NCBI GenBank assembly: GCA_030616165.1
Contig: JAUWXV010000014.1
Coordinates: 1-30,950, forward strand
From: a bacterium
GTDB lineage: Bacteria > SM23-31 > JAUVVT01
Reading direction: 5' to 3'
DNA: 30,950 nt
Below are positions 3,132 to 28,448 of the stretch, piece after piece. A model generated the notes under the pieces. It saw only the letters and a list, made by a program, of their open reading frames with translations. It had not been told where the DNA came from and did not search any database. Both the position numbers and the translations under genes were made by a program. Each line of letters opens with the position of its first letter. Within the stretch, counting starts at the first letter, position 1.

Positions 3132-4070
3132 CTATTGATTGAGCATCTCTAAGATTTTATGCTCGTTATCCTTTGATATATTCACGAATTGGACTCCTGC
3201 TGTTGTGCTCCCATCGAAATTGAGTCGAAGTACCTTAGATTCGGCCTTCCAGTTCTCCATTGGAGGCTGGTTGACTTCCAATAGGAATCTGAAAGTATCA
3301 CCCGGGATAATCCCCTTGGCAAGTTGAATTTGAGAAAGATATGCCCCGCCTAAACTTATGTTTTCAATAATACTATTACCTGGTTTATGAAGGTCAGGTT
3401 CATTCACGTGGTAGACCTTGACATTTGCTGGAATGTTGATTGTAATTCTGGGACATTTGCGTTTTTCGTGATCGGATACAGGGTAAGTAGTGTGACGAGA
3501 TTCAGGGATGTTCAGAAGTGAATTGACTCTTCTTGTCAGTTCAACCTTATCGAGAGCATCCTTCATGATACATTCATCGGCTCCCAATTTAAGAAGATTA
3601 TCGGTTTTGTCTGATTTTAAGAAGCATAGAATCTTAATATTTTTTAGTTCTTCTATTCTCTTGATGGACTTAACAACTTCGGCATCGGAGATGTCGGGAA
3701 GTTCTTCATCAATGAGAAGCAAATCAGGGGGTTTTTTCGAACTCAAAATGAGAGCATCACAGCCGAATGTAACCTTTTCTATCTTAATTCGTTCATCATC
3801 AGCAAAGGTTTTATGTACAAGGGACAGCAAAGCCTCGTCGGAAGTTGCAAGTAGTATTCTCTTCTTTTCGATGAGCATGTTGGCTTGGGAAATGTTGTAT
3901 TGCTTCATGAAAGCTACGAGGCTGTATCGGCTGATGTTACGTTTTCCAGTAATAGGATTCTTCTTGCCGTGCAAAATTCCTTTATCAAACATACGGGATA
4001 CAGTTGCTCTCGAGATACCAAGTAACTTCGATGCATCACCTGTGGAGAAAAAATCTCTTGAGGAGGTCAT
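3132..4070 (-). CDS. HTH-receiver-PilZ regulator, predicted c-di-GMP-responsive
   Basis: A 312-residue three-domain protein. Residues about 7-60 form a MerR/excisionase-type DNA-binding domain (ASKLLGISRATVSRMFDKG, then GKRNISRYSLVAFM). Residues about 70-187 have a receiver fold with phospho-acceptor candidate D121 (LLLIDEELPD) and conserved lysine K170, but the usual acidic pair after the first strand is T76-S77, so phosphorylation is doubtful. Residues about 202-311 form a PilZ domain with both c-di-GMP-binding motifs intact: R204xxxR208 and N237-x-S239-x-x-G242. It probably binds DNA under c-di-GMP control. AGGAAACAG precedes the ATG, and a strong promoter lies about 160 bases upstream. 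It is divergent from the polysaccharide export genes across a long intergenic region, which makes them plausible targets; that is inference. Confidence 0.85.
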   Translation of the reverse strand: MTSSRDFFSTGDASKLLGISRATVSRMFDKGILHGKKNPITGKRNISRYSLVAFMKQYNISQANMLIEKKRILLATSDEALLSLVHKTFADDERIKIEKVTFGCDALILSSKKPPDLLLIDEELPDISDAEVVKSIKRIEELKNIKILCFLKSDKTDNLLKLGADECIMKDALDKVELTRRVNSLLNIPESRHTTYPVSDHEKRKCPRITINIPANVKVYHVNEPDLHKPGNSIIENISLGGAYLSQIQLAKGIIPGDTFRFLLEVNQPPMENWKAESKVLRLNFDGSTTAGVQFVNISKDNEHKILEMLNQ

Positions 4071-4226
4071 ACATCTGTTTCCTTTCTTATGTTTGGTTAT
4101 TGCATATGTTGACTTTGAATGAAACTTAAAGAATAGCTTGTGAAATCTAAACTTAGGTTGCCAAGCAAGATAAATAAATGATGAGAATTTATATTTATAT
4201 CTGCAAATGAAAAATTAATTGAAATC

Positions 4227-4255
4227 AATATATATATATAATTGCAAATTGTCAA
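4227..4255 (-). promoter_or_regulatory. Predicted promoter of the HTH-receiver-PilZ regulator
   Basis: On the minus strand a perfect TTGACA (4255-4250) and TATATT (4232-4227) are separated by 17 bases, close to the ideal sigma70 arrangement. Transcription would start near 4220, leaving an untranslated leader of about 150 bases before the ATG at 4070. The motif TGCAAAT/TTGCAAAT occurs on both sides of the -10 region (about 4202 and 4242) and could be a binding site; that part is a guess. Confidence 0.5.
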
Positions 4256-4498: not shown

Positions 4499-4538
4499 GC
4501 AGGAGAAATGAATATAAATAAATTTATTGTTCTCCTGC
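4499..4538. promoter_or_regulatory. Perfect 9-bp dyad between divergent promoters, possible operator
   Basis: GCAGGAGAA at 4499-4507 is repeated in inverted form as TTCTCCTGC at 4530-4538. The arm centres are 31 bases apart, about three helical turns, and the space between holds a palindrome AATAAATTTATT. The GC-rich arms stand out in very AT-rich surroundings. No T tract follows, so a terminator is unlikely. It may be an operator for a dimeric regulator such as the adjacent HTH-PilZ protein. Confidence 0.4.
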
Positions 4539-4641
4539 AGATTTAATTTATTCTTAAAACAGGTTATAATCCTTTGATAGAATAATTCCTCGTCCTATTC
4601 AAACTTTTATTGCATATAAATTAAAAAAATTAATTTTTTCC

Positions 4642-4670
4642 TTGACTTTTTATTGTTCGATTATTATATT
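4642..4670 (+). promoter_or_regulatory. Predicted promoter toward the export genes
   Basis: TTGACT (4642-4647) and TATATT (4665-4670) with a 17-base spacer form a good sigma70-type promoter on the plus strand. It lies about 370 bases before the Wza-like start at 5044, so the transcript would have a long untranslated leader. Other promoters nearer the gene cannot be excluded in such AT-rich DNA. Confidence 0.4.
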
Positions 4671-5043
4671 AATTAAGAAGTATTCAAATCTGCATATCTG
4701 TATTTATTCAGGTCTTTATATTAAGATTATGTTTCTTGTGGATTTAGTTTTGTTTCGATGCCCGTATTGTAAATTCCTGAGATAATTTAGATATCTTTGT
4801 CATTTAAACGCTCCTATTCCTAATTATTGAAAATCTTCTTATTGTCCTAATTACTGACACATCTATTTAGATACATCACTTGATGGCAAGTAGTTTAAAA
4901 ATACGTCAAACAATTTGAAACAGGCAAAAAAAAATCTGTATTGGAATAATAGTTAAAAAATTTTTAATAATTTTTTAAATTAAACTAAATAGACATAATA
5001 GACAAAATAGTCATGGTTTTGAGATGTGAAGAAGGAGGAGAAA

Positions 5044-5739
5044 ATGAAATTTTTTCATAAAACAAGAATAGGACAATTAATGAGTTTAATGCTCGGGCTG
5101 TTTCTTTTCGTTGCAGTAATTGGCTGTGCTGGTAAACCTGCCGTAAAACAGGAAATAAGGTATATTCCCAGGGTTACTCTCGCCCCTGGAGACGTTATTG
5201 ATGTCAAGTTTTTTTACACCCCCGAACTAAACGAGACCCAGACAGTCCGCCCCGACGGGATGATTACACTTCAACTCGTTGGTGACATCAATGTGCAGGA
5301 AAAGACTATCGCTGGACTGGAGGAACACTTGATTGAACTTTACACGGTTCATCTCAAGAATCCTGAAATCTCTGTTATTCCGCGGTCGCTGTACAGCAAC
5401 AGGGTATTTGTTGAGGGCGAAGTTAACACACCAGGATATATTGATATGCCAGGCAGATTGACAGCGATGGAAGCCGTCATTAGAGCTGGCGGATTCGATT
5501 TACGAACCGCAAAGTTGAAAAATGTGGTGGTTATTCGGCACAAAAATGGCATACGTTCCGTCTATAAACTTAATCTCAAAAACGCCCTGAATGGCAAGGA
5601 GATACAGCCGTTTTATCTCGAACAGTTCGATATCATATACGTGCCGCGAACCAGAATTGCCAATGTCAATCAATGGGTAGATCAATATATCAGTAATTTA
5701 ATACCTAGAATTGGGCTTATTACCATACCTTTACGTTAG
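5044..5739 (+). CDS. Wza-type polysaccharide export lipoprotein
   Basis: A 231-residue outer-membrane lipoprotein expected to form the export channel. Residues 1-27 are a lipoprotein signal peptide ending in the lipobox VIGC, so C28 would be lipidated. Residues about 44-115 are a Poly_export domain (LAPGDVIDVKFFYTPELNE, VRPDGMITLQLVGDI), and about 120-200 are one SLBB domain (VFVEGEVNTPGYIDMPGRL, VIRAGGF). The C-terminal stretch (NVNQWVDQYISNLI) could be the amphipathic helix that crosses the outer membrane. It is shorter than E. coli Wza, with fewer SLBB repeats, as in many single-SLBB exporters. ATG 5044 is preferred over GTG 5026 because AAGGAGGAG sits 5 bases before it and lies inside the longer frame. 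It heads the export block and precedes its chain-length partner. Confidence 0.92.
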   Translation: MKFFHKTRIGQLMSLMLGLFLFVAVIGCAGKPAVKQEIRYIPRVTLAPGDVIDVKFFYTPELNETQTVRPDGMITLQLVGDINVQEKTIAGLEEHLIELYTVHLKNPEISVIPRSLYSNRVFVEGEVNTPGYIDMPGRLTAMEAVIRAGGFDLRTAKLKNVVVIRHKNGIRSVYKLNLKNALNGKEIQPFYLEQFDIIYVPRTRIANVNQWVDQYISNLIPRIGLITIPLR

Positions 5740-5925: not shown

Positions 5926-7581
5926 ATGAATGAAAAAAGGATAGCACCAGAGACTTCTTTAATGTATGGAGATAAGAAAGTTCCGGAAAGTTCTTTAAGG
6001 GACATCTATTATGTCCTTTTTCGGCATAAGAAGAAGGTGGTTATCTTTTTCTTAGTCGTCGTTTTCACAGTAACGTTTGGCACTTTTCTCGCTCCGGAGT
6101 TCTACAAGTCCGATGCAAAGCTGCTGGTAAAGGTTGGCAGGGAGAGTGTGGCGTTGGATCCCACAGCGACAACTGGTCAAATTATTACCATAAGTCAACC
6201 TCGTGAATACGAAATCAATTCGGAATTAGAGATTCTCAAGAGTCGGGAAATAGCAGAAAAGGTTGTGGATGCTATCGGAATGGAGGTAATTTTGAAACGT
6301 CCCGACGAGGTTTTGTTGGGTGATACTACTGCCACAGGAAAAACCCGGGACGCTGTCAGGGAGGCAAGGCAGAGGATCCGCTCAACCGCTCAAGAGCCGC
6401 TGAGTCTGTTGGAGCGCTGGGATTTACGCGACCAACTGAAAGAACACGACAGTGCCGTTCTGAGCGTTATGGGGAGCCTTAACATTAATGTTGAAGCGAG
6501 CAGCAACATCATTTCCCTTTCTTACGAGGCAAGGAGTCCACAATTGGCTTACGAGGTGCTCTCCAACCTGATTGATTTTTATCTCGAAAAGCACATTGCC
6601 GTCCACCGCACCTCTGGTTCGCACGAATTCTTCATCCAGCAGTCAGACAAGTTTCGCGACAAACTTGCCCAGAGTGAGGAGGCACTCCGTGAAATCAAAA
6701 ACAATACCGGCATATCCTCATTAGACGAACAGAGGACTATTATTTTGGGACGGGTTGGGACCCTCCAGCAGGAGATAGAAATAACATCGGCTGATTTAGC
6801 CACATTAAACTCCAAAGTAGAGGAACTGCAGAGGTTACTGGCAAATCTGCCCGAAAAGATAGAGACCGGCAGAACCACGGGTCTAGATAACATGGCTTAC
6901 GTTTACATGAGAAATTCGTTATACGCTCTTCAACTTAGGGAGCAGGATTTACTTTCAAAATATACTGAGGAAAACCAACTGGTAAAGGAGGTCCGCCGTC
7001 AGATTGCCGAAGCCCAGTCTCTCCTGAATAAGGAGGAACCGACCCATACACAGGTAATACAGAATTTAAACACCGAATACCAGCAGGTGAAGTTGGACTT
7101 ACTCGCCGAAAGAGCGACCCTTTCATCGCTGGAGGGTAAATCAAAAGCACTAAAAGGACTGCTGACCGATGCTCAAGGCGAACTTGTGGCACTGAACAAT
7201 AGTGAAGCCCAGATTGTAAGACTCCAGCGGGAGATAGCAATACAGGAGGTTACTTACCGGAACTACGTTGACAACCTGGAACAAGCTCGTATCGACAATG
7301 CTCTCCAGATGGAAAAAATCTCCAACATTGGTGTTGTCCAGCCTGCATCCTACCCCATGAAGACAAGCCGTCCCAACAAGATGCTCAACCTGATACTCGG
7401 GCTTTTCTTTGGGGTTTTTGGCGGTGTTGGGCTTGCATTTTTCTCAGAATACATAGACCACTCCTTAAAGACGCAGGAAGATGTCGATGAAAGGTTACAG
7501 TTGAAAACACTGATTGTAATTCCAAGGCGTCCAAAAAAAATGGGTAAAATTGAAGTAAAAAAAGAAAAGGTACTGCAATGA
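5926..7581 (+). CDS. Wzz/GNVR-type polysaccharide chain-length and co-polymerase protein
   Basis: A 551-residue inner-membrane protein with the topology of the Wzc/EpsB co-polymerase class without its kinase domain. A cytoplasmic N-terminus and membrane helix (about 39-56) start a Wzz domain (YKSDAKLLVKVGRE, then YEINSELEILKSREIAEKVV). A long periplasmic region with extended coiled coil (about 235-440) includes a GNVR-like part (QREIAIQEVTYRNYVDNLEQ), then a proline-containing motif (SRPNK, 481-485) and a second helix (about 488-507). A short tail reads HSLKTQEDVDERLQLKTLIV, the usual link to a BY-kinase. AGGAGAAAAC precedes the ATG. Its stop overlaps the next start by ATGA, so it is translationally coupled to the kinase-like partner, forming a split Wzc. 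Confidence 0.92.
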   Translation: MNEKRIAPETSLMYGDKKVPESSLRDIYYVLFRHKKKVVIFFLVVVFTVTFGTFLAPEFYKSDAKLLVKVGRESVALDPTATTGQIITISQPREYEINSELEILKSREIAEKVVDAIGMEVILKRPDEVLLGDTTATGKTRDAVREARQRIRSTAQEPLSLLERWDLRDQLKEHDSAVLSVMGSLNINVEASSNIISLSYEARSPQLAYEVLSNLIDFYLEKHIAVHRTSGSHEFFIQQSDKFRDKLAQSEEALREIKNNTGISSLDEQRTIILGRVGTLQQEIEITSADLATLNSKVEELQRLLANLPEKIETGRTTGLDNMAYVYMRNSLYALQLREQDLLSKYTEENQLVKEVRRQIAEAQSLLNKEEPTHTQVIQNLNTEYQQVKLDLLAERATLSSLEGKSKALKGLLTDAQGELVALNNSEAQIVRLQREIAIQEVTYRNYVDNLEQARIDNALQMEKISNIGVVQPASYPMKTSRPNKMLNLILGLFFGVFGGVGLAFFSEYIDHSLKTQEDVDERLQLKTLIVIPRRPKKMGKIEVKKEKVLQ

Positions 7582-8300
7582 CTGATATTTTAAAAAGAAT
7601 ATTTTCCAAACTTGTTAAACTCAATGGCAGAGGTGAAGATTCTGCCCCGCCGGGTTTGGATATCTACGGGAGGGGCAAGGAATATTACGAGACTCTGCGT
7701 TACAGTCTGCTGAAGTCTGAGAACGGTGCCGCTGAGTTGCCGCACCTCATTGTCATAACAAGTTGTAACAGGCGTGAAGGTGTCAGCACGATTGCATCCA
7801 GCCTTGCTGTCACGCTGGCACTCCACGATGATAGGGTCCTGTTCATAGATGCAAACTTTCGCCATCCATCGGCACAGCAAATCTTCAGGGTGAATTCCTC
7901 TCCCGGGCTGGGAGAAGTCCTCTACGACGGTATAGATATCACGGCGGCAATACAGACCTCAGCCATCCAGAACCTCTTTATTCTTTCAACCGGCGAAATG
8001 AAAAAGGACCCCGCACAAAGGTATGAATCACAGGAATTTATCGAACTGTTAAATATCTTTAAACGCGATTACAATTACGTGGTATTCGATGCGCCGCCAT
8101 TGCAGCGTGCGGGAAATTCTGCGGTTCGTCTGGCAGGCATTGTTGATGGTGTGATTCTCGTGGTTGAGAGTGAGAAGATCCGCTGGGAAGTTGCACAGCG
8201 GATGAAGGCACAGATGGTCGAGGCAAAGGCTAATCTCCTGGGGGTTGTCCTCAACAAGAGGAAATTCCACGTTCCAAGATGGCTGTATGATACACTGTGA
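7578..8300 (+). CDS. CpsD/CapB-like BY-kinase homologue with altered Walker A
   Basis: A 240-residue cytoplasmic P-loop protein of the bacterial tyrosine kinase/MinD family and the expected partner of the upstream chain-length protein. Walker A' (VLFIDANFRHP, D91) and Walker B (YNYVVFDAPPL, D171) are intact. The Walker A loop reads SCNRREGVSTIA, with V69 where kinases have the ATP-binding lysine of GKS/T, and the usual proline-glycine before it is also changed. The C-terminus has only one tyrosine (Y237) instead of the tyrosine cluster that kinases phosphorylate. It may therefore bind ATP weakly and act as a structural or regulatory subunit, not an active kinase; that is inference. It starts in the ATGA overlap. 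A GIY-YIG element begins right at its stop codon. Confidence 0.88.
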   Translation: MTDILKRIFSKLVKLNGRGEDSAPPGLDIYGRGKEYYETLRYSLLKSENGAAELPHLIVITSCNRREGVSTIASSLAVTLALHDDRVLFIDANFRHPSAQQIFRVNSSPGLGEVLYDGIDITAAIQTSAIQNLFILSTGEMKKDPAQRYESQEFIELLNIFKRDYNYVVFDAPPLQRAGNSAVRLAGIVDGVILVVESEKIRWEVAQRMKAQMVEAKANLLGVVLNKRKFHVPRWLYDTL

Positions 8301-8883: not shown

Positions 8884-9315
8884 ATGAAAAAAATATGGGG
8901 TAATAACAACCTGTCTTCCCGGCGGCGGGATACCTTGAATATAATTTATTCCGCTGATGATTTTTATGAGGTTCTCGAGCGTGAACGCGCACGTGCTGAC
9001 CGCAGTAACCAATGCTTTTCTCTTGTGGTTTTCAATGTTGGTTTGCCGGGCACGAACGGTGACAATGCCAGGCGTGTAGTATCAATTCTTGCTTCCCGGG
9101 TACGTGTTTCAGACGAAATAGGATGGTTTGACAAGCGGTGTATAGGAGTGATCCTGCCTGATACTTCAGCAGAAGGAGCATGGAAATTAGCAGACGAAGT
9201 CTGTCAGGAGATTAATGGAACAACGCAGACCTCATTTTGCTCCGTTTATACGTATCCATCAGAGGGATTGCCTGTTGATGCAAATCAAATGAAATTTATC
9301 TTTAACAGAGGATAG
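8884..9315 (+). CDS. Degenerate GGDEF-domain protein
   Basis: A 143-residue protein that follows the GGDEF fold from about residue 26: LERERARADRSNQCFSLVVF matches the first helix and strand, and GWFDKRCIGVILPDT aligns without gaps to the usual R-Y-GGDEF-A-V-L-L-P-E-T segment, with DKRCI (83-87) replacing GGDEF. Catalysis as a diguanylate cyclase is therefore excluded; it may bind a nucleotide or a partner, or be a scaffold. It is shorter than a full GGDEF domain. GGTGG precedes the ATG. It ends 2 bases before the phosphoglycosyl transferase gene starts, so the two are cotranscribed and perhaps functionally linked. With the PilZ regulator it hints at c-di-GMP control of this locus. Confidence 0.75.
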   Translation: MKKIWGNNNLSSRRRDTLNIIYSADDFYEVLERERARADRSNQCFSLVVFNVGLPGTNGDNARRVVSILASRVRVSDEIGWFDKRCIGVILPDTSAEGAWKLADEVCQEINGTTQTSFCSVYTYPSEGLPVDANQMKFIFNRG

Positions 9316-9317
9316 CG

Positions 9318-10049
9318 ATGCAGCAAGAACTTTTTACATCAAAAAAAACTATTAATAGAAGCCGCAATGCGGCTGCAATTCAAACAAATGATATTCAAGG
9401 TCAGGCTTTATCTAAAACAGTAAATGGGCTTGAGCAAATCTTTGTCCGAAGAATACCAATATGGAAACGTGCAATGGATATTGTTGGAGCGCTCGTGGGA
9501 CTGACAGTCTTCTCGCCGTTGATGCTTGCAGTGGCGATAGCGATAAAACTAACCTCAAAAGGTCCGGTTATTTTCAAACAGAAACGGGCAGGTCTCGGCG
9601 GCAAACCATTCACTTTCTATAAGTTTCGTTCAATGGTCATCGATGCAGAAGAAAAAAAGAAGCAACTGATGCAATTCAACTTTCGGACTGGACCTGTATT
9701 CAAGATGAATGATGACCCTCGGGTTATACCTGTGGGCAAGTTCATACGCAAATGGAGTTTTGATGAGTTACCCCAGTTCTATAACGTTCTCAAGGGAGAT
9801 ATGAGTTTAGTGGGACCACGACCACCCACGCTCGATGAAGTGCCGCAATACGACAATTGGCAGAAAAGACGGCTGGAGGTTAAGCCAGGTATAACCTGTC
9901 TATGGCAGATTAATGCCCGTCACGAAAGCGACTTTGACAACTGGGTTCGGCTGGACATAGAGTATGTTAAAAAAAAGTCACTTCTGCTTGATATTAAGAT
10001 TCTTCTTCTGACACTGCCAGCCGTTCTTTCACGAAAGGGAGCACATTGA
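9318..10049 (+). CDS. Polyprenyl-phosphate phosphoglycosyl transferase (initiating sugar transferase)
   Basis: A 243-residue protein of the bacterial sugar transferase family (small monotopic type plus an N-terminal extension of about 45 residues). It transfers a sugar-1-phosphate from a UDP-sugar to undecaprenyl phosphate, the first committed step. Visible hallmarks are the re-entrant membrane helix (KRAMDIVGALVGLTVFSPLM, 50-69), FKQKRAG (86-92), FYKFRSM (100-106), the catalytic Asp-Glu pair D149-E150 in SFDELPQ, and DMSLVGPRPP and RLEVKPGITCLWQI after it. It lacks the four to five extra helices of WbaP/WcaJ. The donor sugar cannot be read from the sequence. GAGGA precedes the ATG. It closes the less AT-rich export block; a 199-base gap follows. 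Confidence 0.93.
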   Translation: MQQELFTSKKTINRSRNAAAIQTNDIQGQALSKTVNGLEQIFVRRIPIWKRAMDIVGALVGLTVFSPLMLAVAIAIKLTSKGPVIFKQKRAGLGGKPFTFYKFRSMVIDAEEKKKQLMQFNFRTGPVFKMNDDPRVIPVGKFIRKWSFDELPQFYNVLKGDMSLVGPRPPTLDEVPQYDNWQKRRLEVKPGITCLWQINARHESDFDNWVRLDIEYVKKKSLLLDIKILLLTLPAVLSRKGAH

Positions 10050-10248: not shown

Positions 10249-11094
10249 GTGTCCATAAAAATACAAAAAAGCGAAAAGAGAACGTTTAATCAACTCAAAG
10301 AACACTATGAAATAGAGAAAGAGTTGGCAAATAGACTGCGTAATGCTAGCAAAGAAAAGAGAAGAGATTTATATACTACCATTTACGATGAATTGTATCG
10401 TCGAGTACCCCAGCATCCACAATTGACTCGAAAAATAGACTCAAAATCTCGGCTTACAGCAGTATCTAAACAAATGAGGTTAATAAAACATTTCTTGAAA
10501 CAAGAATCTACATTCCTTGAAGTAGGACCTGGAGATTGTAGCTTGTCGCTTGAAGTGTCTAAGCATGTGAGAAAAGTTTATGCAGTTGATGTATCTAAGG
10601 AAATTACTAAAGGAGATATATTTCCAAAAAACTTTGAATTAATTATTTCCGATGGTTGTAGCATCCCTGTTCCTGAAAATAGTATTAATATTGCATACAG
10701 TAATCAGCTCATGGAGCATTTGCATCCTGAAGACGCCTTTGAGCAGCTTCATAATATATATAAGGCACTGATTCCTGGAGGTAAATATATTTGTATTACA
10801 CCAAATCGGCTTTATGGGCCGGCAGATATTTCGAAATATTTTGATGAAGTCGCAACAGGATTTCACTTGAAGGAATACACGGTTACTGAGTTGTGTAAAC
10901 TCTTTCGCAAGGTTGGATTTTCAAAGATAAGTGTATATATACAAGCAAAAGGGTTTTATATTAAATTCATATTATTTTTAGTTATATTGTTTGAAAAACT
11001 TCTTAGTATACTACCGTTTTCGTTAAGAAAAGTGATAGGCAGGAAGTTACCGTTTAAACAATTATTGGGCATAAGAATAGTGGGGGAAAAATAG
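10249..11094 (+). CDS. Class I SAM-dependent methyltransferase
   Basis: A 281-residue protein with a Rossmann-type methyltransferase core: motif I EVGPGDCSLS (91-100), an acidic residue closing strand 2 (YAVDVS, D114), NQLMEHLHPEDAFEQL (152-167), and PGGKYICITPN (176-186) as motif III. An N-terminal helical part of about 65 residues and a hydrophobic C-terminal segment (about 233-253) flank it. The hydrophobic part suggests membrane association. It could methylate a sugar or the lipid-linked glycan; the acceptor is not evident. It begins with GTG, preceded by AGGA. It is the first gene after the composition drop around 10.05 kb, with clear gaps on both sides (199 and 128 bases), so it may be a cassette of its own. 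Confidence 0.82.
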   Translation: MSIKIQKSEKRTFNQLKEHYEIEKELANRLRNASKEKRRDLYTTIYDELYRRVPQHPQLTRKIDSKSRLTAVSKQMRLIKHFLKQESTFLEVGPGDCSLSLEVSKHVRKVYAVDVSKEITKGDIFPKNFELIISDGCSIPVPENSINIAYSNQLMEHLHPEDAFEQLHNIYKALIPGGKYICITPNRLYGPADISKYFDEVATGFHLKEYTVTELCKLFRKVGFSKISVYIQAKGFYIKFILFLVILFEKLLSILPFSLRKVIGRKLPFKQLLGIRIVGEK

Positions 11095-11100
11095 AATTTG

Positions 11101-11115
11101 ATAATCATTAGTAGA
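11101..11115 (+). repeat. 15-base direct repeat, copy 1, before the epimerase gene
   Basis: ATAATCATTAGTAGA occurs here and identically at 12375-12389. The pair brackets the epimerase gene, one in each intergenic gap. It may be a trace of cassette insertion or recombination, or a shared regulatory sequence. Confidence 0.45.
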
Positions 11116-11222
11116 ACTTCGGTTAACAGCATGTTTTCTAACAACTTATGTGTATTACCAAAGTTAGGCGAAATTTATAACCTATTGACTAAAGAATTTT
11201 GAGATTTTCATCGAATAAGTAA

Positions 11223-12191
11223 ATGAAAAATATACTTTTAACAGGAGCAGCGGGATTTATTGGCGGGAAGACTGCTGAACTTCTCCTTAAAAAGAAAAAT
11301 GAAGTAGTTGGAATCGATAATCTTAATGATTACTGTGACGTAAGACTCAAGGAATACAGGCTTAATCAATTGAAAAAATTTGAAAATTTTAAATTTTATA
11401 AGTTAGATATAGAAAACCTCTCTTTGCTAAGAGGCATTTTCCGGAAATACAATCCAGAAGTAGTAATAAACTTAGCCGCAAGAGTAGGAGTGAGATATAG
11501 TTTAGAAAATCCTTTTGTTTATCATAACACAAATATATTAGGCACACTTAATCTATTAGAATTATGTAAAGATTTCAAAATTAAAAAGTTTATTTTAGCA
11601 TCTACCTCATCCTTATATGCAAATCAAAAAATGCCCTTTAAAGAAAAATTGGCAGTAAACAATCCCATATCCCCCTATGCGGCAAGTAAAAAAGCAGCCG
11701 AGGCAATGTGTTATACCTATCATTATCTCTATGAGATGGATATAACAATCTTAAGATATTTTACAGTATATGGACCCGCCGGAAGACCGGATATGAGTCC
11801 TTTTAGGTTTATAAAATGGATTGATGAAGAAAAACCTGTTTTACTTTATGGTGATGGAAGTCAAAGCAGGGATTTTACCTATGTAGATGATATAGCAGAA
11901 GGTACTATCAAAGCAATAAAGAGAGTAGGGTTTAAGATAATAAATTTAGGGGGTAATAAGCCTTATAAACTAAATTACGTAATAAAACTTATAGAAAAAT
12001 ATTTAGACAAAAAAGCAAAAATAAAACATTTGCCTTTTCATAAGGCAGACCTAAAAGCCACCTGGGCAGATATAACACAGGCACATAATGTGCTTAACTG
12101 GCGACCAACGATTGGCTTAGAAGAAGGCATAAAAGAAACTGTCAAGTGGCATGGAAAGAATAGATGGTGGTTGAGAAAAATAGAGGTATGA
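11223..12191 (+). CDS. NAD-dependent UDP-glucuronate 4-epimerase-like enzyme
   Basis: A 322-residue extended short-chain dehydrogenase. It has the nucleotide-binding motif TGAAGFIG (7-14), the catalytic serine/threonine region ASTSSLYA (126-133) and Y152-x3-K156 (PYAASK). The segment GIDNLNDYCDVRLKEYRLNQ is typical of UDP-glucuronate 4-epimerases (CapI/LspL), which convert UDP-glucuronate to UDP-galacturonate, so a uronic acid in the polymer is likely. RYFTVYGPAGRPDMSPFRF also fits that group. A related UDP-sugar epimerase cannot be ruled out. There is no obvious ribosome site before the ATG. The gene stands alone between gaps of 128 and 216 bases that share a 15-base repeat. Confidence 0.88.
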   Translation: MKNILLTGAAGFIGGKTAELLLKKKNEVVGIDNLNDYCDVRLKEYRLNQLKKFENFKFYKLDIENLSLLRGIFRKYNPEVVINLAARVGVRYSLENPFVYHNTNILGTLNLLELCKDFKIKKFILASTSSLYANQKMPFKEKLAVNNPISPYAASKKAAEAMCYTYHYLYEMDITILRYFTVYGPAGRPDMSPFRFIKWIDEEKPVLLYGDGSQSRDFTYVDDIAEGTIKAIKRVGFKIINLGGNKPYKLNYVIKLIEKYLDKKAKIKHLPFHKADLKATWADITQAHNVLNWRPTIGLEEGIKETVKWHGKNRWWLRKIEV

Positions 12192-12374
12192 GTATTGAAT
12201 TTTGAGGAACTATAAGCATCTTAAAATTTCTTTTTCTTTGAGCACTAATTACTGTGGACTATGGCACATATTGAATGGTGTTTGGGATTTTAAAAATGTA
12301 GGTTTTAATTTTGATCTATCGATTACGTTAATTCAGAAGAGAAAGAGATTAATTGTTGCTGTATCTATTTTTTA

Positions 12375-12389
12375 ATAATCATTAGTAGA
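12375..12389 (+). repeat. 15-base direct repeat, copy 2, after the epimerase gene
   Basis: Identical to 11101-11115. It lies 18 bases before the start of the polymerase-like gene. The rest of the gap (12192-12374) shows no frame or structure I can support. Confidence 0.45.
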
Positions 12390-12407
12390 TAGAAGAACCA
12401 AATATCA

Positions 12408-13832
12408 ATGTTAATTAAAAAATTTTTAATATTTGGTATTGTATCAGCAGGGTTAATATTAACTGCTATCCGGATTCCTATTTTAACCTTGTTATTAGGC
12501 TATATTGTTATACCCACAGCTCTTTTATTTATAGTTTTTTTATCTAAAGACCTGACAAATGGTTTAATATTTTGGCTTTGTGTTTTGCTTTTTTCCGGAG
12601 TTGGAATATGGGCATGGATTTCACACCCTACTCTTCCAGATATTTCCCTTGACAGAGTAATTTGGATTACAGTCTTTGCTGTATTTTTTGCGGAAATAGC
12701 AATGCGGAGAAGGAAAATTCTTCCAATTACTAAAATAGAAATGATGATGATTTTATTTTGTATTGTTTGTTTAATTTCTATGGTTAAAGCAGGGACTATA
12801 TATGAAGAAGGTCAGGGTTTAGTGCTGCGTAGTTTTCTAAATGGTTATGCTATTCCCTTTTCTATATTTTTTATTGGAAAGAATATAGTGGATAATGAAC
12901 AAAGGATCAAGAGATTATTTCAATTCTTGCTACTAATAGGTATTTATTTAGCACTTACTGGCATTTTTGAACATTTTCGCTTTACGAGTTTAGTATTCCC
13001 TCGTTATATTATGGATCCAGATGTTGGTATCCACTTTGGAAGGGCAAGGGGACCTTTTTTGCAGGCTGAAGTAAATGGAACAGTTTTAGTAATGATCTTT
13101 GTAGTAAACGTATATTTTTTGATTCATAAGCGCTGGGGTATATCCAAAGTTATATATATAATTTTTACTGGCCTAATGGTTATTACAATGTTTTTTACTT
13201 ATACTCGCGCCTGTTGGTTAGGATTTATTCTTTCAATATTAATAGTTCCTTTATTCTATCCAAGACTCCGAAAAATTTTTTTATTATGTTTTTTTGTAAT
13301 AGTTATTATTGCTATTTTAAACTGGGATAATGTGATGAGTGAAGATAGGACTGTTGGTGGAGTTACCGCTATGGATCCAGTTTATGCTCGCATAAATCTA
13401 TACGCCGCCTCATTAAGTATGTTTCTTGATAGACCAATTTTGGGTTTTGGTTTTAATACTTTTCAAAATTTTAGCCCTGATTATTTTCATAAAATTAGCG
13501 GAATTCCATTAATGGGTGTAGGTTTAGTTCCACATGATACACTTGCAGGGATTCTGGTTGAATTAGGTTTATTGGGGTTGATTACACTCCTATTAATTTT
13601 TTTCTATGTTTTTCGGAATAGTGTAAAGCTATACCGTAGTTTATACTCCAAGCCCTTTTTAGGCAAAGGTTTGGTAGTAACATTTTGGGGATTAAGTATT
13701 GCTTTTTTTGTGAATATGCAATTCGTTGAAATGCGTTATTTTCAATTTCCTAATAGTCTTTTTTTTCTGGTGGCTGGGATAATAGTTGGGTTGAACCAGA
13801 GGTTATTATTGAATAAAGTTTATAAAAAATAG
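12408..13832 (+). CDS. O-antigen polymerase/ligase-like membrane protein (Wzy/WaaL type)
   Basis: A 474-residue, strongly hydrophobic protein with about ten to twelve membrane helices and one larger loop between residues about 305 and 375. The helix beginning FFTYTRACWLGFILS matches the Wzy_C/O-antigen ligase pattern, where a conserved Ser/Thr-Arg-x-x-W/x-L sits at a helix start. The large loop contains DRPILGFGFNTF and VPHDTLAGILVELG, also typical of this family, with a histidine thought to be catalytic in WaaL-type enzymes. Next to a Wzx flippase and a Wzz-type regulator, a Wzy role (polymerising repeat units on the periplasmic side) is more likely than ligase. Sequence alone rarely separates the two. 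Confidence 0.85.
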   Translation: MLIKKFLIFGIVSAGLILTAIRIPILTLLLGYIVIPTALLFIVFLSKDLTNGLIFWLCVLLFSGVGIWAWISHPTLPDISLDRVIWITVFAVFFAEIAMRRRKILPITKIEMMMILFCIVCLISMVKAGTIYEEGQGLVLRSFLNGYAIPFSIFFIGKNIVDNEQRIKRLFQFLLLIGIYLALTGIFEHFRFTSLVFPRYIMDPDVGIHFGRARGPFLQAEVNGTVLVMIFVVNVYFLIHKRWGISKVIYIIFTGLMVITMFFTYTRACWLGFILSILIVPLFYPRLRKIFLLCFFVIVIIAILNWDNVMSEDRTVGGVTAMDPVYARINLYAASLSMFLDRPILGFGFNTFQNFSPDYFHKISGIPLMGVGLVPHDTLAGILVELGLLGLITLLLIFFYVFRNSVKLYRSLYSKPFLGKGLVVTFWGLSIAFFVNMQFVEMRYFQFPNSLFFLVAGIIVGLNQRLLLNKVYKK

Positions 13833-13879
13833 GAAAAATAAGGTTTAAATAAAATAAATATGTAAACAAAGGTGTTGTA

Positions 13880-15352
13880 ATGTTTCCGAATGAGAAAAAT
13901 CACAAGGAGCGATTGTCTCAGCGTGTAGTTAAGGGCGGATTCTGGGTATTTTCACTCAGGTTGGTTCACCGTTTGTTTAGTTTAGCAAGAATTGTAATTC
14001 TTGCCCGTATCCTTGCTCCTCATGATTTTGGATTAATGGGTATAGCAATGCTCACGATGGCAACTTTGGAGACATTTTCTCAAACAGGTTTTCAGCAAGC
14101 CTTAATCCAAAAGAAAGATAATGTAGAAAGTTATCTCAATAGTGCCTGGACAGTTTCAATTTTACGTGGTATTATCCTATTTTCCATCTTATATTGTATT
14201 GCACCTATTGCAGCAAATTTCTTTAAGGTACCAGAGGCGAAATCCATAATTCAGGTTATCGGATTTTCAGTTCTTTTTCAGGCATTTACTAATATCGGTG
14301 TTATCTATTTTCAGAAAGAATTAGAGTTTAATAAACAGTTTATTTATCAACTTAGCGGCACATTAGCCGATTTTATTGTTGCTGTTTCTGCTGCCTTTAT
14401 ATTGAAAAGTGTTTGGGCTCTTGTGTTTGGAATATTAGCCGGAGATTTTGTAAGGTGCATTGTAAGTTACATAATTCACCCTTATAAACCGCATTTAAGT
14501 TCGGATTTGGGAAAGGCAAAAGAACTTTTTGGTTTTGGGAAGTGGATTTTGGGTTCAAGTATAATAATGTTTCTGACAACTCAAGGCGATGATATTTTTG
14601 TAGGAAAACTACTCGGCATCACTATGCTAGGTTTTTATCAAATGGCTTACAAGCTTTCAAATATGCCGGCTACAGAGATAACGCATACAATTTCCCAGGT
14701 TACTTTTCCAGCTTATTCAAAATTACAAGATAATATCCCTAAATTAAGAGAAGCGTATTTAAAAGTTCTACAAATTACAGCATTTTTATCTTTTCCTATA
14801 GCAGGGCTAATTTTTGTCTTAGCTCCAGATTTTACCAAAATATTCTTAGGTGAAAAATGGATGCCAATGGTACCGGCGATGATGGTTTTGGCTTTATGGG
14901 GGCTAATAAGGTCAATAGGCGCAACAAAAGGTCCGATATACCAAGCTGTCGGGAAGCCAGGAATAGCGACTAAGTTACAGTTTGTGAGACTTATTTTATT
15001 GGTTATTATTATTTATCCGTTTACTATAAAATGGGGTATTCTGGGGACATCACTTACTGTGTTACTCAGTATTCTACCTGTTGAACCCATAAGTTTCTAC
15101 TTGGCTATGAAAATTATTAAATGCCGTGTTTGGGAATTTGGGAAATTAATTGCTTTGCCAACATTAGGGGTAACAGCTATGTCTACTGCTATATTGGCAT
15201 CTAAATTCTTTATTTTTAGCATCACTGGAATGGTTTCCTTTTTTGCACTCATTGCCATTGGTGTGATAGCTTATATTACCATGGCTATTATTTTTGATTG
15301 GTTATTTAGATACAATATCAGAGAGACCATCCAAAAGCAATTCTTTGGTTGA
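13880..15352 (+). CDS. Wzx-type flippase (MOP superfamily, WzxC/TuaB-like)
   Basis: A 490-residue membrane protein with about 12-14 helices. The N-terminus RVVKGGFWVFSLRLVHRLFS, followed by ARILAPHDFGLMGIA and TFSQTGFQQALIQKKD, is the opening typical of the polysaccharide_synt_3 (WzxC, TuaB) group. Later GKLLGITMLGFYQMAYKLSN and SQVTFPAYSKLQDN are also typical. It should move lipid-linked repeat units across the inner membrane. An AAAGGTG site precedes the ATG. It lies 47 bases behind the polymerase-like gene, and the pair presumably acts together. The C-terminal part of the family is variable, and nothing looks truncated. Confidence 0.92.
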   Translation: MFPNEKNHKERLSQRVVKGGFWVFSLRLVHRLFSLARIVILARILAPHDFGLMGIAMLTMATLETFSQTGFQQALIQKKDNVESYLNSAWTVSILRGIILFSILYCIAPIAANFFKVPEAKSIIQVIGFSVLFQAFTNIGVIYFQKELEFNKQFIYQLSGTLADFIVAVSAAFILKSVWALVFGILAGDFVRCIVSYIIHPYKPHLSSDLGKAKELFGFGKWILGSSIIMFLTTQGDDIFVGKLLGITMLGFYQMAYKLSNMPATEITHTISQVTFPAYSKLQDNIPKLREAYLKVLQITAFLSFPIAGLIFVLAPDFTKIFLGEKWMPMVPAMMVLALWGLIRSIGATKGPIYQAVGKPGIATKLQFVRLILLVIIIYPFTIKWGILGTSLTVLLSILPVEPISFYLAMKIIKCRVWEFGKLIALPTLGVTAMSTAILASKFFIFSITGMVSFFALIAIGVIAYITMAIIFDWLFRYNIRETIQKQFFG

Positions 15353-15377
15353 GATGTTTAATTAAAACTTATTTAAA

Positions 15378-16454
15378 ATGGTAAATGAAAAAAACAGTAA
15401 AATAAGACAATCATTACCAGATATTGACAAAAATGAAACACCTCCATTTTCTAGTATTGACAGAGTTGTTCATGCTATTCATGATAGAATTTTTCCGTTG
15501 TTGATTAATCACCGAGATGTTGTATTATTAGATTTTCCCAATCACGCAAATATTGGGGATAGTATAATATGGCTTGGTACATTACAAATACTAAAAGAAG
15601 TTATTGGTTGCAATATTCATTTTGTTTCTACTGGCGATGATTTTTCAATTCAGCGTTTTCGAAAAGTTGTTGCTAAAAAAAATTTCACTATTTTATTATT
15701 AGGAGGTGGCAATTTTGGCGATATCTGGATTCATCATCAAAATTTTCGTAATAAAATAATTCAAGAATTTCCAGATAAAAGAATAATTCAACTTCCTCAA
15801 AGTATATATTTTTCTTCTTACGAAAAAGAGAAATTATCTATGCGATTAGCAGCTGATCACAGTGATTTTTATTTATTGGTTCGAGATAAAAAAAGCTACG
15901 AGATTGGCCTTCGATATTTACCAAAGACTCGTATTTTTTTATGTCCAGATATGGCTTTTTGCATTGATATTAGAAAATATATTACTACTCAAATACAACC
16001 GACCAATCCAATAAAATTTTTATTAAGATCAGACATAGAGGCTATTTCTTGTAAACAAAAAGAGGAGAAAAATAGGAACGGAAATGACTGGGTGTTTAAA
16101 GAAGATGGAATGATATTTGATATCGGGCGTTGTATGAGAATAGTTGATAAACATTTTATAAGAATTGCACAAATTTTTGACCTTACATTAAGGCAACCTT
16201 ATTACAGAAAAATTGCGACGCTTCGATTAAAAAGAGGGATAAATTTATTACAACAAGGCAAGCGAGCTATTACTGATAGGTTACATGGACATATTTTATG
16301 CGTATTATTAGGTATGGAACATATTGCCATTGATAATTCTTATGGTAAGGTTCACAGTTTTATTAATGCGTGGACAAAAAATATACAGGGCGTCCACATG
16401 GCGAATTCAATTGATGAAGCATGTAGGCTCGCTCGTCGTTATGGATGGGTTTAA
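15378..16454 (+). CDS. Polysaccharide pyruvyl transferase family protein
   Basis: A 358-residue protein of the pyruvyl transferase (PF04230) family, which places a ketal pyruvate from phosphoenolpyruvate on a sugar and so adds negative charge to the glycan. It shows the N-terminal NHANIGDSIIW (55-65), the glycine-rich LLGGGNFGDIW (107-117), and the C-terminal TDRLHGHI (299-306) followed by IDNSYGKVHSF (318-328). Overall it resembles EpsI/EpsO and PssK-type proteins of exopolysaccharide loci. The short gap behind the flippase (25 bases) suggests cotranscription. The acceptor sugar is unknown. Confidence 0.9.
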   Translation: MVNEKNSKIRQSLPDIDKNETPPFSSIDRVVHAIHDRIFPLLINHRDVVLLDFPNHANIGDSIIWLGTLQILKEVIGCNIHFVSTGDDFSIQRFRKVVAKKNFTILLLGGGNFGDIWIHHQNFRNKIIQEFPDKRIIQLPQSIYFSSYEKEKLSMRLAADHSDFYLLVRDKKSYEIGLRYLPKTRIFLCPDMAFCIDIRKYITTQIQPTNPIKFLLRSDIEAISCKQKEEKNRNGNDWVFKEDGMIFDIGRCMRIVDKHFIRIAQIFDLTLRQPYYRKIATLRLKRGINLLQQGKRAITDRLHGHILCVLLGMEHIAIDNSYGKVHSFINAWTKNIQGVHMANSIDEACRLARRYGWV

Positions 16455-16500
16455 AAACATTGAATAACTTATTATTTAGATAATAAATATAAAAAGATAA

Positions 16501-17535
16501 ATGTGTTGTAACCATAATTTGCGCATGTTTCCTTATCACAAAAGCAAAAAAGAAATAGCAAAAAAAAATAATGGACTATCTATTGTTACCGTTTCCATGA
16601 ATCGGACTCCTGATTTATGTGAGACAGCTAGAAAGCTTTCGCAGTATCCCTATCATATGGAGCATGTAATTATAGATTGGAGTAGTGCTCCTCCAATCAC
16701 CTTTAATGATTTGCCCAGAGATAAACGAATAAAATTATATCGTGTTTCTGGGGAAAAAAAATGGCACTTGACGCGCGCATATAATTTTGGTTTTAGGATG
16801 GCCAATGGAGCGTATATTCTTAAAGCAGATGCAGACGCGTTAATTGATAAAGAGTTTTTTCAAAATAACGAGTGGCAGCAAATAAATGTATTTTTGGCTA
16901 ATGATCCTACTATGGGTGATACGTTTGTAAAGTCTCTTACGGGACTTTTTTTCGTGCCACGGACTCGACTTTTAGAAATAGGAGGTTTTAATGAGTACTT
17001 AGACGGATGGGGCTACGATGACATAGATTTGTTTACTCGTCTTAGAAGGGTATGTAATTATCAAAGGATTAATTTTACCGGGGTAAAAACAATTCCTCAA
17101 AGTGATGAGGAACGTATTAAAAATACAATTGACGCTATTTATTTAACTAGAAACAGAAACCTTGCAGCGGTAAAATGTGCTAATAGTGATAAAAATAGAT
17201 GGGTTGCTTATGTACTCATGTGGAGTAATACAAGCCCAAAATCGCTCTATGAAAAAAGGGAAGAAGGTGATTGGATAGCAAAATCGATTCCAAAAATCCC
17301 TGATCATTTATTACCTAAAGTTGAATATGTAAAAAGAAAAGCTTTTGTTGAATATATGCTTGGTATAAAAATAGGATCTTGTTCTCAGGAAGATGTGAAA
17401 CGTATGGAATGGCTAGTTCAAACAAAATACCGATTTATAGCGAAAACCGCAGCAATATTACCGCGGATACTTAATAAAATTATCAGGGTGGCCGCAATCA
17501 ACATTGCACATATTAAGTATAAGCAAAAAAAATAA
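16501..17535 (+). CDS. GT-A family glycosyltransferase with galactosyltransferase-like C-terminal motif
   Basis: A 344-residue cytoplasmic glycosyltransferase of GT-A fold. It opens with LSIVTVSMNRTPDL (26-39), carries the metal-binding D-A-D at 110-112 (ILKADADALI), and then GLFFVPRTRLLEIGGFNE and GWGYDDIDLFTRL (169-181), the acceptor-binding motif of the Glyco_transf_7C group also seen in chondroitin-polymerase-like enzymes. It presumably adds one sugar of the repeat. The start is uncertain: ATG 16501 and ATG 16525 are both possible, neither with a good ribosome site. About 100 C-terminal residues after the catalytic part are unassigned. Confidence 0.82.
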   Translation: MCCNHNLRMFPYHKSKKEIAKKNNGLSIVTVSMNRTPDLCETARKLSQYPYHMEHVIIDWSSAPPITFNDLPRDKRIKLYRVSGEKKWHLTRAYNFGFRMANGAYILKADADALIDKEFFQNNEWQQINVFLANDPTMGDTFVKSLTGLFFVPRTRLLEIGGFNEYLDGWGYDDIDLFTRLRRVCNYQRINFTGVKTIPQSDEERIKNTIDAIYLTRNRNLAAVKCANSDKNRWVAYVLMWSNTSPKSLYEKREEGDWIAKSIPKIPDHLLPKVEYVKRKAFVEYMLGIKIGSCSQEDVKRMEWLVQTKYRFIAKTAAILPRILNKIIRVAAINIAHIKYKQKK

Positions 17536-17598
17536 TTTATATTGCAAAGTTAGTTTATTAACTTTACAAAATTAAATCATAGTGTAATCAGAAAATAT

Positions 17599-18654
17599 AT
17601 GGAAAATATTAAACGATTTGTAGAATGTCTTGTTCCTGGCACAGTGTGTAACTTAAACTGTAGTTATTGCTATACAAAACAAGAGGAACGACAGAAGAAC
17701 CTCCCCCATTTTGAGTATACTCCGGAGTATATAGGTAAAGCTTTATCTAAAGATCGTCTGGGGGGGACTTGTTATATCAGTATGTGTGCAGCAGGCGAAA
17801 CGCTTATTCCACCTGAGATGCCCGAGATTATTAGACACATATTACAGCAAGGACATTATGTGAATATTACCACAAACGGGACTCTAAATAATAGATTTGA
17901 CGAAATTTTAAAATTACTTAAACCTGAACAATTAGAAAGGCTTCACTTTGCTTTTTCTTTTCATTATTTAGAACTAGTTAGAACCAATAAAATAGATGAT
18001 TTTTTTAGAAATGTTAAAAAGGTAAGAAATTCGGGATGCTCATTTCTAATTCAAATTAATCTTTGTGACGACTACATCCCTTATTTAAAAGAAATTAAGA
18101 CAATATGTGAAAAAAATACAGGTGCTCCGCCTCAAGTAGCAGCAACAAGGAATGAGCGAACAAGAAAAATAACATTGATGACAAAATATACAGTGGACGA
18201 ATATAAACAATTTGGAAAAATATTTCAGTCTTCTTTATTTAATTTTACTATGAAAAATTTTATGGTAAAACGTAAAGAATTTTGTTACGCAGGAGATTGG
18301 GCTTTTAAATTATATTTAGATACAGGCATGATGGGAAGATGTTATGACTCTCAATCAACTCAAAATATATTTAGAGACTTAAATAAACCCATAAAATTTA
18401 AAGCAGTAGGGAATAATTGTAACTCGCCATATTGCGTAAATTCCAGTCATTTCATGTCGTTGGGAGTAATACCTGGAATATTGGCTCCTTCATATGCAGA
18501 TTTGCGAGATCGTCCCGAGGCCCGATGGTATACACCTAGGATGATAGCGTTTTTAGATGGTAAGTTATTTAATAATAATAAAGAGTATAATTGTATTCAA
18601 AAACTTTCAGCGAATATGGAAGAATTTTCAATAGACTTAATAAAAAAAGTATAA
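17599..18654 (+). CDS. Radical SAM protein with extra C-terminal cysteines
   Basis: A 351-residue radical SAM enzyme. The [4Fe-4S]-binding CxxxCxxC is clear at C17, C21, C24 (CNLNCSYCY), followed by the SAM-contacting GE motif (AAGETLI, 65-71) and VNITTNGTL (88-96) on a later barrel strand. C229, C248, C274 and C279, plus others nearby, could hold a second cluster as in SPASM/twitch proteins. The substrate is unknown. Lying between a GT-A glycosyltransferase and a GT2 in a polysaccharide locus, it may modify a sugar or the glycan, for example by dehydration, epimerisation or methylation; that is inference. Radical SAM proteins do occur in such loci but are not a standard part. Confidence 0.83.
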   Translation: MENIKRFVECLVPGTVCNLNCSYCYTKQEERQKNLPHFEYTPEYIGKALSKDRLGGTCYISMCAAGETLIPPEMPEIIRHILQQGHYVNITTNGTLNNRFDEILKLLKPEQLERLHFAFSFHYLELVRTNKIDDFFRNVKKVRNSGCSFLIQINLCDDYIPYLKEIKTICEKNTGAPPQVAATRNERTRKITLMTKYTVDEYKQFGKIFQSSLFNFTMKNFMVKRKEFCYAGDWAFKLYLDTGMMGRCYDSQSTQNIFRDLNKPIKFKAVGNNCNSPYCVNSSHFMSLGVIPGILAPSYADLRDRPEARWYTPRMIAFLDGKLFNNNKEYNCIQKLSANMEEFSIDLIKKV

Positions 18655-18733
18655 TAAAAACTAAGAGATATATACGGCATATTATTGGCCTTTTAAAAAA
18701 TAGAAAAAACGTAAAGAAAAACTTAATTGGAAA

Positions 18734-19693
18734 ATGAAATCTGAATTAGTTAGTGTAATCATTCCTACATATAATCGGGCTCATTTGATAGGTCGAGCAA
18801 TTCAAAGCGTTTTGAATCAAACTTATAAAAATATGGAGATTATAATAGCGGATGATGGTTCTACTGACAATACCGAAGAGATAGTAAAAAGTTTTCAAGA
18901 TAAAAGAATTAAATATATTAAGTATCCGGAAAACAAAGGAGGTTGCGCAGCAAGAAATATTGGTATAAGAAGTTCAAGAGGGAAATACATTTCATTTTTA
19001 GATAGTGATGATGAATGGCTGCCAGAGAAATTGGAAAAACAATTAGAAGTTTTTGAAAAATCTCAAGACGAAAAACTTGGTTTTGTAAATTGTGGAACAA
19101 TTTTTATTGATGCAGAGAATAAAAAAGAAATAACAAGAATTTTATCTCGGGAAAAGGATTATATATTTAAAGATATGTTAGAAAATAATTATGAAACAGG
19201 TGGCGGTAGTAGTAATTTAATAAAAAGAGAAATATTTGATAAATGTGGTTTTTTTGATGAAAATTTATATTTAAAAAAAGGAGGACAACAGGATTACGAG
19301 ATGTGGTTAAGAATTGCAAAAGAAAATAAATTTGATTATGCCCCTCGATACTTAGTAAGGCGTTATTTTCACTCAAAAAGCATAACGTCAATGTCCGAAT
19401 TGCGCGCTAAGACAGAAGCATTCAAATATGTAATCTGTAAATATAAGAAAGATTATGAAAAATATCCTAAAGCTTACAGTGGCTATTTTCGTGGTTTAGG
19501 AGCTCAATACTGTCTTGCCGGAGATTTAAAAAGGGGGAGAGAAAAATTTTTCGGCTCAATTAAAATTGAACCTTTAAACTTTAAAAATTACTTACATCTG
19601 TTAGTTTCTCTTGGAGGATTTAAAATTTATTCAATTCTTCATTCTTTGTGGTATTGTAAGTTAAAAACACTGCTAAGAAAAGGGACGATATGA
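18734..19693 (+). CDS. GT2 family glycosyltransferase (module copy 1, first gene)
   Basis: A 319-residue GT2 enzyme: SVIIPTYNRAHLIGRAIQSV (7-26), nucleotide-binding IIADDGSTDN (37-46) and the metal-binding D90-S-D92 (FLDSDDEW). GGQQDYEMWLRIA later is the acceptor-side ED-like motif. The C-terminal part (about 250-310; GDLKRGREKFFGSIKIEP) resembles a TPR-type repeat. Its stop overlaps the next start (ATGA), so it is coupled to the following GT4 gene. The same gene order, with a similar C-terminal domain, recurs at 21047-24363, so this is one copy of a duplicated three-gene module. The sugar is unknown. Confidence 0.9.
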   Translation: MKSELVSVIIPTYNRAHLIGRAIQSVLNQTYKNMEIIIADDGSTDNTEEIVKSFQDKRIKYIKYPENKGGCAARNIGIRSSRGKYISFLDSDDEWLPEKLEKQLEVFEKSQDEKLGFVNCGTIFIDAENKKEITRILSREKDYIFKDMLENNYETGGGSSNLIKREIFDKCGFFDENLYLKKGGQQDYEMWLRIAKENKFDYAPRYLVRRYFHSKSITSMSELRAKTEAFKYVICKYKKDYEKYPKAYSGYFRGLGAQYCLAGDLKRGREKFFGSIKIEPLNFKNYLHLLVSLGGFKIYSILHSLWYCKLKTLLRKGTI

Positions 19694-20829: not shown

Positions 20830-20832
20830 TTT

Positions 20833-21057
20833 GTGAGTATTTCAATCGCTTCTGAAAAGAAACTACTATTCGTCATTTCTCACCTTGCTGGCGGAGGAAC
20901 TGAACGGGTTTTGCATTGTCTGCTGAAAAACGGCATAAATATTCTTCAAAGATTACTCAATATGATTCGGCAAACAGGATATAAAAGGGCGCTTGAATGT
21001 CATACTTATCAAAAAAGATTTAATGATTTATTTAAGAGGATTTTCAATGATAAATAA
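20833..21057 (+). pseudogene. Collapsed GT4 gene (module copy 1, third gene), N-terminus plus unrelated tail
   Basis: A 74-codon frame starting at GTG. Its first about 28 codons (KKLLFVISHLAGGGTERV) are the N-terminus of a GT4 enzyme, and correspond to VLFIIPSLVGGGAERM in the intact gene at 23236, which sits in the same place in the second module copy. The start contexts are nearly the same too (TTGATTTGTGA in both). After that the sequence no longer resembles a GT4 N-terminal domain and ends after about 40 codons, so an internal deletion has removed nearly all of the gene. The frame overlaps the next gene's start by 11 bases. It is unlikely to make a working enzyme. Confidence 0.7.
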
Positions 21058-23232: not shown

Positions 23233-23235
23233 TTT

Positions 23236-24363: not shown

Positions 24364-24383
24364 TAGGATAATTGAATTAAAAT

Positions 24384-24521: not shown

Positions 24522-24523
24522 GA

Positions 24524-25744: not shown

Positions 25745-25841
25745 AATGTTAAAAACTAATATCTGTGATATTAAAATTGATAATATCTTGTATTTTGGAA
25801 ATAAGCGTGTAATCAGCTTTGATTAATAGAAAATATTATGC

Positions 25842-27970: not shown

Positions 27971-27979
27971 GGTGAGAAA

Positions 27980-28447: not shown

Positions 28448-28448
28448 T

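Follow-up and report, generated by a model that had tools for sequence, protein, structure and literature searches.

A c-di-GMP-responsive regulator candidate joining helix-turn-helix, degenerate receiver and PilZ domains beside a polysaccharide export operon

Closest described systems and the domain architecture

Reviews count FleQ, VpsT, VpsR, BldD, BrlR, MrkH and others among the transcription factors that respond to cyclic di-GMP (c-di-GMP). Here we analyze a regulator gene of another design, located at positions 3132..4070 of the (-) strand in a 30,950-nt stretch of bacterial DNA (contig JAUWXV010000014.1), which is referred to below as the window. Its product (312 aa, ATG start) joins an N-terminal helix-turn-helix (HTH) domain of the HTH_17 family, a receiver-like domain and a PilZ domain. 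No description of this three-domain architecture, nor of a receiver-PilZ or an excisionase-PilZ one, was found in the open-access papers searched, which is weak evidence of absence.

Several known systems share a part of this design. VpsT, FleQ and FsnR bind c-di-GMP without a PilZ domain, and their HTH families and domain order differ from those of the window regulator. The likeness is that a receiver-like domain is combined with an HTH in a c-di-GMP-responsive protein; several of these proteins control matrix or flagella (PMC12564702, PMC10519070). MrkH from Klebsiella is a c-di-GMP-dependent activator that controls a biofilm structure and contains a PilZ domain (PMC3161979, PMC5055493), but it carries a YcgR-N domain, binds DNA through surfaces of the PilZ and N-terminal domains (PMC5055493), and has neither HTH_17 nor a receiver. 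PixA from Myxococcus xanthus has PilZ and a receiver in one protein and binds c-di-GMP in vitro; however, its PilZ domain precedes the receiver, the receiver is canonical, there is no HTH, and the protein acts in motility (PMC8316039). Finally, the widespread HTH_17-receiver response regulators (~190–210 aa) have the same N-terminal order of HTH_17 followed by a receiver, but they lack PilZ, retain a canonical phosphorylation site, and their HTH is only 23–39% identical to that of the window regulator.

All three domains of the window regulator exceed the curated Pfam cut-offs: HTH_17 at residues 8–57 (3900..4049, (-) strand; PF12728, 28.2 bits, cut-off 27), Response_reg at residues 73–182 (3525..3854, (-) strand; PF00072, 33.0 bits, cut-off 30.2) and PilZ at residues 202–311 (3138..3467, (-) strand; PF07238, 29.1 bits, cut-off 22.5). 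The joining of three domains in one protein, proposed in an earlier sequence-only reading of the window, is thus upheld. That reading called the HTH MerR/excisionase-type; the excisionase part of this assignment stands and the MerR part does not, as no MerR model occurs among the Pfam matches to E 0.1. In the full-length AlphaFold2 model (mean predicted local distance difference test score, pLDDT, 85.4; predicted template modelling score, pTM, 0.52) three folded domains are seen, namely the HTH (~7–57), a receiver-like alpha/beta domain (70–186) and a PilZ barrel with a C-terminal helix (~207–311), with a flexible linker at residues 191–203. Because the pTM is 0.52, the relative placement of the domains is not predicted. 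According to both Pfam and AlphaFold2, the YcgR-N domain of MrkH-type regulators is absent before PilZ, and HTH_17 and the receiver occupy the N-terminal part. An open reading frame on the (+) strand (3508–4122), antisense to the regulator gene, was treated as spurious.

Both c-di-GMP motifs of the PilZ domain are intact, with R204, R208, N237, S239 and G242 exactly where the sequence-only reading placed them. The two arginines of RxxxR (R204–R208; 3447..3461, (-) strand) are invariant in 7/7 aligned PilZ sequences, and NxSxxG (N237–G242; 3345..3362, (-) strand) takes the form N/D-x-S-x-x-G in 6/6 receiver-PilZ proteins, so that both motifs are retained across six such proteins from two phyla. 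A sequence search of PDB with the PilZ profile gave no match, and fold comparison was used instead. The AlphaFold2 model of PilZ alone (pLDDT 85.6, pTM 0.76) has as its best Foldseek matches in PDB other PilZ structures, many of them c-di-GMP-bound: YcgR (5y6g), MapZ (5xly), Alg44 (4rt0) and BcsA. MrkH structures are also found among the matches. We infer that the domain may bind c-di-GMP by way of these two motifs.

The receiver, described earlier only as receiver-like, is confirmed by Pfam and by its fold, which matches the solved receivers DivK, VicR and others (Foldseek). The degeneracy of its active site had gone unremarked. The first acid of the Asp pair is replaced by S77 and the conserved Thr/Ser by L151, whereas D78, the phospho-acceptor D121 and K170 are retained. 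The same pattern is seen in the whole set of receiver-PilZ proteins: the first acid is lost in 6/6 (S, S, T, P, R, C) and the Thr/Ser is replaced in 5/6 (usually by L/A/M/Y), while the second acid, the phospho-acceptor and the Lys are kept in 6/6. In addition, the three-domain proteins have KD in place of the KP motif. Where PilZ is missing, HTH-receiver proteins mostly retain the canonical site. In the receiver tree, from which one wrongly framed sequence (G277_HR) was left out, the receivers of PilZ-fused proteins form one clade with the support 0.998.

The second copy and relatives in other genomes

The window belongs to a metagenome-assembled genome (G000; 3.74 Mb, 343 contigs, 90% complete, 1.6% contamination). 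A second intact copy of the regulator gene is located in the same genome on contig C67 (C67:1928-2863, or L019:1928-2863). It encodes 311 aa and is 83% identical to the window regulator; its HTH is 95% identical and scores 28.1 bits with HTH_17 (cut-off 27). The copies differ at 35, 18 and 55 of the 311 first, second and third codon positions, respectively. For the whole gene the nonsynonymous (dN) and synonymous (dS) divergences are 0.087 and 0.283 (dN/dS 0.31), with the HTH under the tightest constraint of the three domains (dN 0.040, omega ~0.22). Purifying selection acts between the two copies.

The duplicated block starts ~30 nt past the stop codon of the regulator gene, covers the regulator promoter region (84% identity over 192 nt) and the leader of the adjacent wza-type gene (73% over ~390 nt), and ends within the first ~13–17 wza codons. 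Copy 2 lacks ~390 nt in the middle of the block, including the predicted −35 element of the wza promoter. Given that the block holds the promoter of the regulator together with the wza leader, the regulator and the leader were already linked when the duplication took place; copy 2 lost its wza target afterwards. The flanks of the copies differ, which favours a paralogue over an allele, with a residual chance that copy 2 comes from a contaminating related strain in the assembly.

Without PilZ, the HTH-receiver part is widespread among genomes, and the complete architecture is rare. Broad samples of 98, 290, 385 and 392 genomes, partly overlapping, yielded no further three-domain proteins at the thresholds used, which bounds their frequency and is not a proof of absence. 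In agreement with the earlier claim of an uncommon domain combination, only two other three-domain homologues were found in the genomes sampled, copy 2 and a protein from genome G296, which belongs to another phylum. The latter (L055:9876-10811, 311 aa) is 36% identical to the window regulator. Its Pfam scores are under the cut-offs (e.g. 18.6 bits for HTH_17); therefore ordinary annotation would miss it. Its HTH is 56% identical to that of the window regulator, against the 23–39% seen in HTH-receiver proteins, so that common descent or transfer accounts for the three-domain form, with the HTH probably lost from the shorter proteins.

Such shorter forms were found in the same phylum. The PilZ query retrieved two HTH-less receiver-PilZ proteins from G149, and G296 encodes one more in addition to its three-domain protein; in the phylum of G149, 2/64 genomes were positive, both from one genus. 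These proteins share the degenerate receiver and PilZ with the window regulator (28–40% identity in the receiver-PilZ part) and differ from it in the missing HTH. In a third phylum, genome G464 encodes a LacI-type HTH joined to PilZ (L079:1776-2330, (-) strand; LacI just under the Pfam cut-off). Here, too, a DNA-binding HTH is joined to a related PilZ domain (28% identity), but there is no receiver, the HTH is of another class, and the motif reads NIGVGG, without Ser. This fusion implies that the joining of HTH and PilZ occurred more than once. No homologues of the regulator were found in viral contigs, in plasmids, or among the 3 genomes of the G034 phylum. A match in L005 (Poribacteria) was dropped, as it is only a receiver-phosphatase response regulator.

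The architecture is real and not a product of chance, because two more three-domain homologues exist and both genomic copies are under purifying selection. Judged by sequence, HTH-receiver-PilZ is a rare protein design with relatives in two phyla.

The divergent region, the polysaccharide cluster and c-di-GMP enzymes

The regulator gene and the wza-type gene are separated by a 0.97-kb divergent region (4071-5043). A sigma-70-like promoter TTGACA-17-TATATT is predicted for the regulator gene (4227..4255, (-) strand); in copy 2 its −35 box is conserved and the −10 box is changed at one base (TACATT). The predicted promoter of the wza operon, TTGACT-17-TATATT (4642..4670, (+) strand), lies ~370 nt before the start codon; copy 2 lacks its −35 part. 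Over the whole region, promoter-like sites are no more numerous than in shuffles. Several contigs of the genome carry short stretches that resemble the predicted wza promoter region (window 4621-4671, around TTTTTTCCTTGACTTTTTATTG) and perhaps represent a common promoter type. For the predicted wza leader of ~370 nt, the folding stability of the RNA was not above that of shuffles (z +1), and Rfam detected no riboswitch or other RNA family in 2780-5940 at E up to 1.

Three occurrences of a 13-nt motif, TGCAGATWTRAWT, are found in the window, all of them between the regulator and wza genes. One candidate operator, TGCAGATTTGAAT (4682..4694, (-) strand), lies just downstream of the predicted wza promoter and is identical in copy 2. 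Another, TGCAGATATAAAT (4193..4205, (-) strand), lies just downstream of the predicted regulator promoter and has one mismatch in copy 2. Relative to the two predicted transcripts, these sites are placed at about +5 and +15, immediately beyond the −10 boxes. The third, TGCAGATTTAATT (4536..4548, (+) strand), has the opposite orientation and is located upstream of the predicted wza promoter, in a region absent in copy 2. When the same genome was scanned for the exact pattern of the wza-side site plus its copy-2 flank, copy 2 was the only match. The motif is a candidate operator to test, no more.

The divergent position of the regulator gene next to a polysaccharide export operon was borne out. 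The cluster spans ~25 kb and includes Poly_export, Wzz/GNVR, BY-kinase, Bac_transf, Wzy_C, flippase, pyruvyl transferase and many glycosyltransferase genes. All of its genes given here are on the (+) strand. It starts with the Wza-type export lipoprotein (Poly_export, SLBB; 5044..5739; Pfam and NCBIfam), whose ATG at 5044 follows AGGAGG; Poly_export genes number three in the genome. Next come the Wzz/GNVR chain-length determinant (5926..7581; Pfam), a BY-type tyrosine autokinase domain protein (7578..8300; NCBIfam TIGR01007 over the cut-off) and, after further genes, the initiating sugar transferase (Bac_transf, 9318..10049; Pfam). The remaining cluster (10249..30816; Pfam) encodes a methyltransferase, epimerases, a Wzy-type ligase/polymerase, a flippase, a pyruvyl transferase, glycosyltransferases and a nucleotidyl transferase. 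A GIY-YIG endonuclease reading frame (8397-8678) is situated between the tyrosine kinase and sugar transferase genes. A 95-aa reading frame (25881-26168) matches only the C-terminal part of Glycos_transf_1 and is probably a truncated glycosyltransferase gene.

The expectation that homologues sit beside polysaccharide genes held in part. The three-domain gene of G296 converges on a run of WbqC, GT2, sulfotransferase and LPG_synthase_TM genes, and copy 2 keeps the start of wza; around the remaining relatives, the neighbouring genes examined include none for glycans. At L034:9661-15000 in G149, the gene of one HTH-less relative diverges from three HD_5 genes in tandem (HD-GYP-type), the first of which reads both the HD and GYP motifs.

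The genome encodes two strong GGDEF proteins with intact GGEEF and upstream RxxD, as well as HD-GYP-type proteins; hence c-di-GMP is likely made by the organism. The number of PilZ proteins in the genome is four. The polysaccharide operon itself contains a degenerate GGDEF-like gene with an RxxD motif (RVSD; 8884..9315), which Pfam misses. It was recognized by hhalign against the diguanylate cyclases of the same genome (E 2.9e-6, probability 88). The register of RxxD comes from an ungapped reading by eye, and the motif is also retained in the paralogue from the C146 cluster (L064:5141-5557, (+) strand). A PelD-like role as a post-translational c-di-GMP receptor is possible for this product.

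Proposed mechanism and alternatives

The regulator is probably a gene switch. Given the observed domains, motifs, predicted folds, conservation, gene position and c-di-GMP enzyme genes, we lean towards a mechanism in which it binds the shared divergent region, senses c-di-GMP via PilZ and switches the polysaccharide operon and its own gene. The N-terminal HTH_17 would bind operators in the 0.97-kb region shared with the wza-type operon, as well as its own promoter, and the C-terminal PilZ would bind c-di-GMP by its two motifs. The receiver, with its phosphorylation site partly lost, is probably mainly a dimerisation or coupling module; phosphorylation of D121 would be weakened, though still conceivable. 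Binding of c-di-GMP would change the spacing of the HTH domains and thereby switch both transcription units, whichever the direction of control.

Alternatively, the protein could be a two-signal response regulator, with a histidine kinase phosphorylating D121 as the main DNA-binding switch and c-di-GMP as a second input. The retention of D78, D121 and K170 in 6/6 receiver-PilZ proteins while the rest of the site drifts is consistent with this, as is the phosphorylation-sensitive behaviour of PixA (PMC8316039). Moreover, copy 2 adjoins a single-domain receiver and a histidine-kinase-like fragment that has a PAS-type repeat and, as read by eye, an HNH-type dimerisation motif. We nevertheless regard this explanation as unlikely: no kinase gene adjoins the window copy, and the substitutions at the first acid, the Thr/Ser and KP set these receivers apart from those of the PilZ-less HTH-receiver proteins, which mostly keep a canonical site. 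An ordinary regulator, in which PilZ has only a structural role and no longer binds c-di-GMP, is very improbable. Some PilZ proteins, e.g. PlpA, do fail to bind c-di-GMP in vitro (PMC8316039), but here both motifs are complete and conserved across two phyla, and the organism encodes c-di-GMP enzymes.

Several observations weigh against direct control of the divergent operon. In copy 2 no wza gene follows the leader and a part of the wza promoter is gone, so that one copy persists without this target. As the HTH-less relatives show, DNA binding is not required for the receiver-PilZ part to exist. The closest paralogous wza cluster (C146) has no adjacent HTH-receiver-PilZ gene in the 8 kb examined. 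In G296 the glycan genes lie 3' of the regulator gene, and the contig does not cover its upstream side; a single gene neighbourhood is fully visible. The operator triple appears in 4.5% of shuffled intergenic DNA, which is marginal, with thresholds chosen after the motif was seen; a simpler count of a 7-mer word gives 12% of shuffles. A shuffle test for any such triple is the fairer one, because the pattern was written after the sites had been seen. The first three of these points would fit a regulator acting on other proteins or on distant promoters, its adjacency to wza being historical. However, the HTH is the most constrained domain between the copies and is conserved across phyla, and the gene was duplicated together with its long divergent leader, which is still 73–84% alike. 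We therefore consider this account doubtful, and prefer the c-di-GMP-dependent switch at the shared divergent region.

More tentatively, these HTH–pseudo-receiver–PilZ proteins may constitute a family of transcription factors that spans phyla and is so far undescribed. In such a family, c-di-GMP bound to PilZ would act via a phosphorylation-independent receiver to set the transcription of surface polysaccharide clusters. With the degenerate GGDEF protein (RxxD) of the operon, the same signal would have two targets, the promoter and the assembled export machine.

The regulator offers a clean case for studying the role of a receiver domain once its phosphorylation chemistry decays, and the HTH-receiver-PilZ arrangement would be a natural design for c-di-GMP reporters. 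If the proposed mechanism is true, a single modular protein would tie matrix gene expression directly to c-di-GMP in little-studied phyla.
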